Program-made: the position numbers and the translations under genes
From: Chloroflexota bacterium
GTDB lineage: Bacteria; Chloroflexota; Dehalococcoidia; JACQGW01
DNA length: 6,514 nucleotides
Reading direction: 5' to 3'
Assembly: GCA_016199325.1 (NCBI GenBank)
Contig: JACQGW010000028.1
Span: 1-6,514, forward strand
In this document: positions 607-3,600 of the stretch, piece after piece
Position numbering within the stretch: the first letter of the stretch is position 1
Layout: every line of letters begins with the position of its first letter
Notes under the pieces: generated by a model
Told to the model about the DNA's origin: nothing
The model's input: the letters and a program-made list of their open reading frames with translations, nothing else
The model's database searches: none

Positions 607-3600
607 ATGGCGGAGGAGCATGCGCTCACGTTGCGCGTCGCCGAGGCGCTGCCGAAGGACGTCGGCCGCGGCATCGCCCGGCTCGACCCCGCCGACATCG
701 AGCGGCTGGCGGCCGCCATCGGCGACGTGGTCGAAATTCGGGGCAAGCGCCGGACGGTTGCGCGCCTGATGCCGGCCTACGCCGCCGAGCGCGGCAAGGG
801 CCTGATCCAGATCGACGGCATCATCCGGGAGAACACCCAGGCAGGGCTGGACGACCGGGTTCAGGTCGCCAGGGTTGCCCATCAGCCGGCCCGCAGCCTG
901 ACGCTGGCGCCCACCGGCCCGGCGCAGCAGGCGCTCCGCAGCCAGGACACCAGCTATCTCGGCCGGCTCCTGGAGGGCGTGCCGCTCCTGACCGGCGACC
1001 GCGTCCGCATCAACCTCTTCGGGACTCGCCCCGTCGACTTCGTCGTGAGCGAGACGACGCCGAAAGACGTGGTGCTGGTGAATGGGCAGACGGCGATCCG
1101 GATCAAGGGGGAAGTCGCGTCCGAGCGCCGCGGGCCGGCCATCTCCTACGAGGACATCGGCGGCCTCGGCAAGGAGATCGCCCGCATCCGCGAGATGATC
1201 GAGCTGCCGCTGCGCTACCCCGAGGTCTTCGAGCGGCTGGGGATCGATCCGCCGAAGGGGGTGCTGCTCTACGGCCCGCCCGGCTGCGGCAAGACGCTGA
1301 TCGCCCGGTCGGTCGCCTACGAGACGGCGGCCTACTTCATCCATGTGGCCGGGCCTGAAGTGATTCATAAGTTTTATGGGGAGAGCCTGCCGGGCAGTGA
1401 GCTGGTACTGGTCCTGAAAGCCGGGCGCCTCGAGCGCAAGCCAATCGCCGACGTGGTTGCCGAACAGGACGACTCGCTGCAAGTGCCGTGTTTCGGCCCC
1501 GACGGCAGAGTCCGGTTCGGGCGCGTCACCGGGTTCTACGAACATCGCCTCCACGGCAAGCTGCTCCGAGTGCGCACCGCCAGTGGGCGGGAGATCCGTG
1601 TCACCGAAGGTCACTCCCTGTTCACCGTGGACTCCGAAGGTATCCGCGCCCTGCCTACGCCCGAGCTCGTCGCCAACGAATCCTTCATCGCCGTGCCTGG
1701 CCGGCTGCCGTTGCCTGATTCCTCTCTTGACGAGCTGGATCTGTTGTATCTCCTGAGGAACGATGAAAGCCTTGTCGCCAGGGGACCGGCCGTCGAGCAG
1801 CTCGTTCGGCGGGCTATTGGCATTCTCGGTCGCGAGCGGTGCGCGAAGCTTCTCGGAGTGAGGGTGAAGTACACCTACGACCTTGTGTCCAAGCGCGTGG
1901 CGATTCGGTTGCCCAGACTGCTGCGGCTTGCCGAGGCCGCGGGCATCCCCGTGGATCCAGAAGCGCTCACGCTGTCGACGCTCAAGCGCAGGAGCGGCAT
2001 CCCGACGAGAATACCGCTGACCACCGACCTCTGCACGTTCTTCGGTTTGTGGCTAGCCGAGGGCTCGTTCTCCAAAGGCCGCGGGGTCCGTATCAGCGTC
2101 AGCCGCGATGAAGGAGATGCGGTTGCGGCACTCTGTACCCGTCTCTTTGGGAGCGTGACCGTCTATCGTCCTGCGAACCGGCGGGCGACAGACGTGCATG
2201 TGTCTTCGATGGCGCTGGTCAAGGCGATGCAAGCGTTGGGGTTCGTGAGCGGCGCGCGCCGGAAGCGTGTGCCGCCGTTTGCCTTTAGCCTGTCCCGGGT
2301 GAACCTGGCAGCCCTGATCCGTGGCTACTACTCCGGCGACGGCTCGGTTAGCCGCACGACGCCCGCGCCCCAGGTCGAGGTTAGCACTGCCAGCCCTGCC
2401 CTGGCAGACGACGTGTGCCACCTGCTGCTGTTCTTCGGCATCGTCGCCAAGGTCTACGACCGCCCGAGTGAAGGAGCCAAGCGCATCTGCTTTGCCGATG
2501 CCAAGAACCTGGAGCGATTCCTGGAGATCGGCTTCCTCGACGAGGGGAAGAATGCCCTGATCCGGCGCTATCTGGAGAAGTGCCCGGTGCCGCGCCGCGA
2601 CCGACTACCGCTAGCAGCCGTGCGGGACCTGCCTGGGTCGAGCGTCTCCGCCTGGCGGGGCCTGTCCGCTATCGGCGTGGCGGCGACGGCGCGCCGCCTC
2701 GGAACCCTGCCCGCGGAGCTGGACGGCGACCTGTACTGGGACAAAGTGGTGGCTATCGAGGAGCTGCCGGACCAACCCGAGCATGTGTACGACATCGCCG
2801 TCGAGCCGGGCGAGAACTTCGTGGCGGGCTTCGGCGGCATCTTCGCTCACAACAGTGAGGCCCATCTGAGAAGCATCTTCCAGGACGCCGAGCAGCATGC
2901 GCCGAGCATCGTCTTTCTCGACGAGATCGACGCCATTGCCCCCAAGCGCGAGGCGGTTCAGGGCGAGGTCGAAAAGCGCGTCGTCGCCCAGCTCCTGGCC
3001 CTGATGGACGGGCTGAAATCTCGCGGGCAGGTCATCGTCATCGGCGCGACGAACATCCCGGGCAGCATCGACCCGGCGCTCCGGCGCCCCGGTCGCTTCG
3101 ACCGGGAGATCGTCATCTCCGTTCCCGACCGGACCGGCCGCCTGGAGATCCTCCAGATCCACACGCGTGGGATGCCGCTGGCCCAGAACGTCGATCTGGA
3201 CCGGCTGGCCGCAATAACCCACGGCTTCGTGGGCGCCGACCTTGCCGCGCTCTGCCGGGAAGCGGCAATGGCCTGCCTGCGGCGGGCGCTGCCGGCCTTC
3301 GACTTCGCCCGATCCGAGCTCCCCCTGGAGGACCTCCTGCGGCTGGAGGTCACCATGGACCACTTCCTGGAGGCGCTCAACGAGATCGAGCCCTCCGCCA
3401 TTCGGGAGGTGTTCACCGAGGTGGCCGACGTCAAGTGGGACCAGGTCGGCGGCCTCGACGAGGTCAAGCGCGTCCTGCGAGAGGCCGTGGAATGGCCGCT
3501 CAAGTACGGCGACCGCTTCGCCTACGCCAGGACGAGCCCGCCCAAGGGCGTGCTGCTGACCGGCGCGCCCGGCACCGGCAAGACCCTGGCTGCCAAGGCC

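Follow-up and report, generated by a model that had tools for sequence, protein, structure and literature searches.

Older intein databases list CDC48 entries. Transfer of inteins between the domains of life is known, and halobacterial intein alleles common to bacteria have been tabulated, according to the available portion of PMC4071816. In haloarchaeal MCM two intein sites lie in the channel of the hexamer, and neighbouring extein DNA is carried along during homing (available sections of PMC10643990). The intein described here interrupts the gene of a CDC48 family AAA+ ATPase on contig JACQGW010000028.1 of a Chloroflexota bacterium (GenBank assembly GCA_016199325.1); the whole stretch analysed, positions 1 to 6,514 of the forward strand (6514 nt), is called the window. 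The element is very probably an intact mobile LAGLIDADG intein, seated in pore loop 1 of the first ATPase ring (D1) of a gas-vesicle CDC48 and with the homing history proposed below; the host cluster is probably bacterial, from Chloroflexota. It is an element of an ordinary kind, with a host and site unusual for bacteria and a readable horizontal history. The open-access literature, in the parts of its texts that were available and with most subscription journals outside this scope, held no recognisable description of this intein, nor of CDC48 in gas-vesicle clusters. The same applies to the available parts of PMC4247193, PMC6107691 (where Cdc48d appears as a co-purifying protein) and PMC10643990, and a search for the term 'cdc48' found it absent from the main text of PMC4071816, PMC7765530, PMC5874633 and PMC2814812.

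Host gene and intein

The precursor gene and its parts are:

607..4239, +, precursor of a CDC48 family AAA+ ATPase, 1210 aa with the intein (open reading frame; CDC48_N, CDC48_2, AAA and intein domains; TIGR01243)
607..1383, +, N-extein of 259 codons, with the N-terminal domains of CDC48 and D1 as far as pore loop 1
1273..1296, +, D1 Walker A, GPPGCGKT (sequence reading)
1369..1383, +, D1 pore loop 1, KFYGE, counterpart of VAT KYYGQ (Tyr264/Tyr265) by alignment of P0122 to VAT
1384..2853, +, intein, 490 codons (protein residues 260-749), Ser1 to His489-Asn490
1384..1422, +, splicing block A, nucleophile Ser1 (SLPGSELVLVLKA); S1 invariant in the 36-row alignment; TIGR01445
1591..1632, +, block B, T74-x-x-H77 (VTEGH); T74 and H77 invariant in the 36-row alignment
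1741..1941, +, helical insert preceding the endonuclease core, residues 120-186 (helices in the AlphaFold model)
2023..2073, +, first LAGLIDADG motif, catalytic-type Glu226 (2059-2061); helix 214-226 (AlphaFold); E226 invariant
2296..2346, +, second LAGLIDADG motif, catalytic-type Asp319 (2338-2340); LAGLIDADG_3; G318 and G320 invariant, D319 almost invariant
2782..2853, +, blocks F and G, Asp470, His489, Asn490; TIGR01443; D470, H489 and N490 invariant
2854..4239, +, C-extein, Ser+1 first; remainder of D1 and whole second ring (D2)
2908..2931, +, D1 Walker B, IVFLDEID (sequence reading)
3658..3678, +, D2 pore loop 1, KWVGE-SE, uninterrupted (protein residues 1018-1024; sequence reading)

The original prediction, an intein in D1 pore loop 1, proved exact in its anatomy. 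The 490 codons at 1384-2853 follow Glu259 and precede the Ser codon at 2854-2856, the residue counts agree (720 + 490 = 1210), the insertion falls between Walker A and Walker B, and KWVGE-SE of D2 is uninterrupted. Against the whole window protein the NCBIfam CDC48 profile TIGR01243 scored 913.2 bits (cut-off 802.65), and a Pfam profile search found CDC48_N, CDC48_2 and AAA domains; by its N domains, its two AAA rings and its score above the family cut-off the host is a CDC48/VAT AAA+ unfoldase. The insert itself matched Pfam and NCBIfam intein models above their curated cut-offs, as an intein should: Intein_splicing with 64.2 bits (cut-off 35.8), intein_Nterm (TIGR01445) with 37.3 (24.5) and intein_Cterm (TIGR01443) with 25.9 (15.6), in addition to LAGLIDADG_3 with 62.0 (22.5) at residues 309-381. 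In a protein search that scored 7998 candidates, 183 matched the intein at E <= 0.001 (120 are listed); given these 183, the assignment is, at the level of sequence, far beyond chance.

Class 1 inteins are marked by a nucleophile at position 1, TxxH in block B, a terminal His-Asn, and Ser, Thr or Cys at +1. All of these residues are present: S1, T74, H77, H489 and N490 are invariant in the alignment of 36 rows from which intein residue conservation was read, and Ser stands at +1. The predicted fold is that of HINT domains, with a predicted local distance difference test (pLDDT) score of 92.5 for the AlphaFold model and intein chains as the top rows of the structure search. By sequence and fold the insert is classed as a class 1-type intein, for which autocatalytic splicing is predicted. 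Both LAGLIDADG motifs carry acidic catalytic residues (E226 invariant, D319 nearly so); judged by these motifs the endonuclease appears intact, and site-specific DNA cutting is predicted. The helical insert at residues 120-186 is a possible candidate for a DNA-binding region in the model.

Insertion site

HKFYGE/SEAHL of the intein-free protein P0122 (the slash marks the junction), which is identical to the window in the pore-loop stretch, aligns on SKYYGQ/SEQKL of VAT (structures 5g4f and 5vc7). Tyr264 and Tyr265 of VAT are conserved and essential residues of NBD1 pore loop 1, as stated in the available part of PMC5423775. The insertion therefore lies directly behind the substrate-gripping aromatics, and pore loop 1 of D1 is upheld as the site. 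Uninterrupted, the site is read through as KFYGESEAHLRSIF in the intein-free P0122, P0125 and P0126.

Inteins were extracted from 116 of the 120 listed matches; P0112, P0114, P0115 and P0116 were excluded, their best match beginning past residue 20. At least 114 of the 116 are at the matching pore-loop boundary. When the form is assigned from the three residues before the junction, and not from the ring itself, 100 follow YGE, YGQ or FGE (D1 form) and 14 follow VG or MG (D2 form). The other two are P0110, which reads FYGE/S (cut 13 residues late), and P0102, a different protein with another site. The inteins start with Ser in 115 cases and end in His-Asn in all 116, and the +1 residue is Ser in 111 and Thr in five. 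A comparison of insertion site and host phylum, proposed with the original prediction, thus finds the D1-form loop in 100 of 116 inteins, with named hosts that are mostly DPANN archaea.

A homologous intein was also seen outside CDC48, in P0119, at KWVGE/SE of an FtsH-type protein (HEAGH motif; PF01434, which we take to be peptidase M41). Double inteins occur in nine of the 116 proteins (P0011, P0012, P0018, P0031, P0097, P0101, P0111, P0113 and P0120). Their layout is a Cys-start intein after GPE-x-M, then S-K-x-Y-G-(Q or E), then a Ser-start intein, so that the pore loop is a six-residue extein stranded between two inteins. The substrate-gripping loop of AAA+ proteins is shown to serve as a single intein site in D1, D2 and the FtsH-type P0119, and in both archaea and bacteria. 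As an engineering lead, a splicing element at the pore loop may mark a natural on/off site for unfoldases.

Relatives of the host protein and of the intein

After in silico removal of the intein, the extein of 720 residues shares 86.2% identity with the intein-free P0122 and 84.2% with P0124. Every named one among the eleven nearest exteins is from Chloroflexota, in keeping with the bacterial look noted earlier for the ATPase. The intein is absent from 118 of the 120 best extein matches and present in the window and P0002. In the extein tree (191 rows of 600-900 residues) the bacterial exteins group with archaeal CDC48s, beside intein-free CDC48s of which one is named Nezhaarchaeales. Two CDC48-like proteins, P0121 and P0123 (1007 and 1024 aa), have alignments that suggest three AAA rings and not two, which may be an assembly or annotation error.

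The named hosts among the 120 listed intein matches are 21 DPANN (we count Woesearchaeota, Aenigmarchaeota, Nanoarchaeota and Micrarchaeota as such), two Bathyarchaeota, one Bipolaricaulia and one Omnitrophota, 25 in total. A scan of genome contigs, which rests on exact short query patterns and detects close relatives only, gave two full-length relatives with 45% identity, L001 (genome G001) and L002 (genome G002), both Woesearchaeota, and a third locus over 54 residues. On viral contigs the exact short query patterns matched five stretches, none encoding an intein relative. In a survey of the phylum of G002, 131 of 279 genomes match the intein at E <= 0.001, many of these matches being short or weak and perhaps general intein similarity; in eight surveyed genomes a match covers the full 490 residues with 42-47% identity. 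Direct reading showed the D1-form site at L017, L018, L001 and L002, and the G+C content of the eight closest archaeal copies (L015-L022) is 34-47%.

Genome G002 has 17 matches to the intein splicing model, i.e. several inteins. In L001 the CDC48 frame is broken at 9785-9789, close to where the first ring ends, and continues in a second open reading frame, which is either a real break or an assembly error; the frame of L002 is whole. An annotated Met start just before the pore loop is found in P0003, P0014, P0034, P0042, P0043 and P0074. P0034 was considered as a split gene and rejected: at L018, on a contig of equal size (236427), the frame is open for 298 codons upstream. We take the start of P0034 to be an annotation truncation, a claim that covers this one of the six.

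Trees were calculated with FastTree for the 116 inteins and with IQ-TREE for 56 of them, with a midpoint root for drawing only. The window intein forms a clade with those of P0002, P0003 (Bipolaricaulia), P0004, P0006 (Omnitrophota), P0007 and P0008 (FastTree 1.0, IQ-TREE 100/100). This seven-member clade joins P0009 and P0010 (IQ-TREE 100/99, FastTree 0.519), and in the IQ-TREE tree it is nested among inteins whose named members are DPANN. The intein seems to have crossed between domains of life, and transfer from archaea to bacteria is the most economical reading, not a proven one. The bacterial case had been put forward as unusual; its host and context are new, but it is not alone, six more members of the clade being known, two with bacterial names.

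Between the window and P0002 identity is 67.6% for the intein and 69.1% for the extein. A comparison of 47 rows gave 903 pairs of D1-located inteins other than this one; where the exteins are 0.65-0.70 identical (106 pairs), intein identity ranges from 0.35 to 0.77 with a median of 0.47. The extein of P0002 shares 93.1% identity with the intein-free P0197, its close extein relatives (92-93%) lack the intein, and in the extein tree the window and P0002 stand in separate groups that are otherwise without intein. Horizontal movement between bacterial CDC48 genes is therefore favoured over descent from a common ancestor that had the intein.

Codon usage around the insertion

The extein has a G+C content of 70.1% with 91.4% G/C at third positions; the values for the intein are 65.7% and 80.2%. 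Codons ending in A or T make up 62 of 720 in the extein overall versus 9 of 16 from -10 to +6 around the insertion, and CCT, AGT and AGA are used within this range and nowhere else in the extein. The two flanks are:

1354..1383, +, upstream flank of the tract of A/T-ending codons, 10 codons (CCT GAA .. ATT CAT .. TTT TAT)
2854..2871, +, downstream flank of the tract, 6 codons (AGT .. CAT .. AGA)

Against random synonymous codons of the same gene the excess gave p = 0.0003, 0.002 and 0.015 when 10, 15 and 20 codons were taken on each side. Codon use was also scanned by likelihood for resemblance to the intein. With six of the seven widths the maximum fell at codons 252-260, and with the widest it fell at 269; the insertion itself comes after codon 259, and the scan position centred exactly on it ranks 5th to 23rd of 671-711. 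No significant excess was found at the D1 site of any of eight intein-free CDC48 controls, none from Chloroflexota (three widths each, p 0.08 to 1.0; lowest 0.081, in L038 at 20 codons). Six of these are alphaproteobacterial plasmid genes, two of them from one strain, and two are haloarchaeal plasmid genes. The peak at the junction fits a co-conversion tract, being such as a tract would leave.

The protein encoded by the flanks is identical in 40/40 residues to the intein-free P0125 and P0126, and in 21/40 and 23/40 to the archaeal-type P0009 and P0015. The tract would therefore have come last from a bacterial donor whose protein was nearly the same and whose third positions held less G/C. A tract of about 16 codons, if confirmed, would record gene conversion and let homing be read from the DNA of a wild bacterium.

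Proposed mechanism and alternative explanations

According to the proposed cycle, the intein would splice itself out by means of Ser1, block B His77, Asn490 and Ser+1, and the 720-residue unfoldase would be restored. Before splicing, D1 of a precursor subunit would be unable to grip substrate; the original view that D1 of the unspliced precursor is dead can be soundly inferred. In CDC48 genes that lack an intein, the endonuclease would cleave the pore-loop coding DNA, and the intein would be copied across during repair of the break. The lineage would come from the family that uses the same site in DPANN CDC48, enter bacteria and then spread between bacterial CDC48 genes. Such a parasitic cycle of splicing, cutting and homing would explain why the endonuclease is intact, why the intein is spread so patchily and why its site is conserved. 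What is shown directly is the anatomy of the sequence, its predicted fold, the insertion site, the relationships and the codon footprint; we infer splicing, cutting, the direction of transfer and the loss of D1 function in the precursor.

Several points weigh against this account. The case for splicing and cleavage is made at the level of sequence and predicted fold. An organism name is attached to only 25 of the 120 listed matches, and the two intein hosts with bacterial names are metagenome-assembled genomes, which can be misbinned. P0002, P0004 and P0007 are bacterial by extein placement (P0004 with a node support of 0.399), and P0006 and P0008 are partial. Branching within the seven-member clade is weak (80/9 at the node of the window), and IQ-TREE flags an unusual amino-acid make-up in the window and seven other rows, mostly in or near the clade. 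Other pairs reach intein identities of up to 0.77 at like extein identity. The widths of the codon test were picked with the pattern already in view, and the p value is higher, 0.015, at 20 codons. The flank protein equals that of intein-free relatives, so that a real tract would stem from a closely related bacterial gene, and intein-free Chloroflexota alleles might use the same A/T codons without any intein.

The intein could instead have been inherited vertically, together with the CDC48 gene from an archaeal donor, and been lost later from most bacterial copies. This would suit the grouping of the bacterial exteins with archaeal CDC48s and an insertion site common to both domains of life, but 118 of the 120 best extein matches are without intein, as are the closest relatives of P0002 (92-93%). 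The exteins stand beside intein-free CDC48s (one Nezhaarchaeales) whereas the intein stands among DPANN-named inteins, and the identity of the window and P0002 inteins is above that usual for like extein identity; vertical descent is accordingly considered improbable. The intein might also be a domesticated regulator, with splicing conditional on temperature, redox, metal or ATP state and a gas-vesicle unfoldase that is inert until a signal releases it on demand. Splicing of the RadA intein is reported to depend on temperature (available text of PMC5874633), that of the DnaB intein is reported to respond to zinc (available part of PMC7360933), and placement in the gripping loop would make a tight off switch. 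However, the two endonuclease motifs are preserved, as they would be in a parasite that still homes, and the same 118 extein matches manage without an intein, which makes regulation a slightly poorer prospect than vertical descent. Inheritance with loss and a conditional switch are both less supported than the parasitic cycle. The contig is short (6514 bases), and a foreign CDC48 intein joined into a bacterial contig during assembly would be a third explanation, yet a scarcely credible one: both junctions are in frame and residue-exact, the intein has 65.7% G+C against the 34-47% of the eight closest archaeal copies, and its closest relatives are bacterial-type.

Gas-vesicle neighbourhood

The remaining genes of the window are:

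34..603, +, Hsp20 family protein in GvpH-like position (HSP20, 35.6 bits, cut-off 20.8; NF041800, 158.4 bits, cut-off 140)
4324..5433, +, GvpL/GvpF with C-terminal DnaJ domain (PF06386, PF00226)
5408..6199, +, GvpL/GvpF (PF06386)
6202..6513, +, GvpG, extends past the window end (PF05120)

Profile matches to GvpL/F (twice), GvpG and Hsp20 beside the CDC48 gene bear out the gas-vesicle setting, and every one of these genes is on the + strand. The structural protein GvpA is not among the genes of the 6514-nt window. Eight CDC48 extein matches pair with GvpL/F-DnaJ matches on contigs of identical size (17920, 19014, 33132, 51592, 22636, 40284, 20197 and 26514 bases), the same contig being deduced from the size; two further size pairs (2318 and 3314 bases) were not counted, their sources being different and 2318 bases too short for both genes. 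Judged from these equal sizes, CDC48 would therefore be a regular part of such gas-vesicle clusters. Both Pfam domains of the GvpL/GvpF-DnaJ fusion (4324-5433) are present in 119 of 120 listed relatives, the window counted, and several of these are named Chloroflexota.

Comparison with known systems

The best solved relative of the window intein by sequence is PI-PkoII (PDB 2cw7), with 25% identity over the fold alignment. We take it to be the Pol-2 intein of Thermococcus kodakarensis, whose host protein is DNA polymerase and whose insertion site is hence another. For the gene cluster, the annotated isolates Methylocella tundrae T4 (plasmid p1) and Methylosinus sp. C49 (plasmid pMSC49b) show the arrangement directly: CDC48 is two genes past Hsp20/GvpH, gvpN, gvpF/L, gvpG and gvpJ are in the cluster, and gvp genes and Hsp20/GvpH lie upstream of CDC48. 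Their CDC48 proteins are alphaproteobacterial and intein-free, with 56.1% and 54.7% identity to the Chloroflexota P0122.

The closest inteins, those of P0002, P0003, P0004, P0006, P0007 and P0008, share 55-68% identity with that of the window and have the KxYGE/S site in common; their exteins are other CDC48-type proteins. The pore-loop-1 inteins of DPANN CDC48 match the window in kind of host, loop boundary and splicing and endonuclease residues, L001 and L002 with 45% identity over the full length. They differ in their archaeal hosts, in their flanks (KFYGQ/SEQNLRKK in L001 and L002, KFYGE/SEAHLRSI in the window) and in forming separate, deeper branches. A parallel to the pore site of the window intein is offered by the channel sites of the haloarchaeal MCM inteins, as described in the available sections of PMC10643990.
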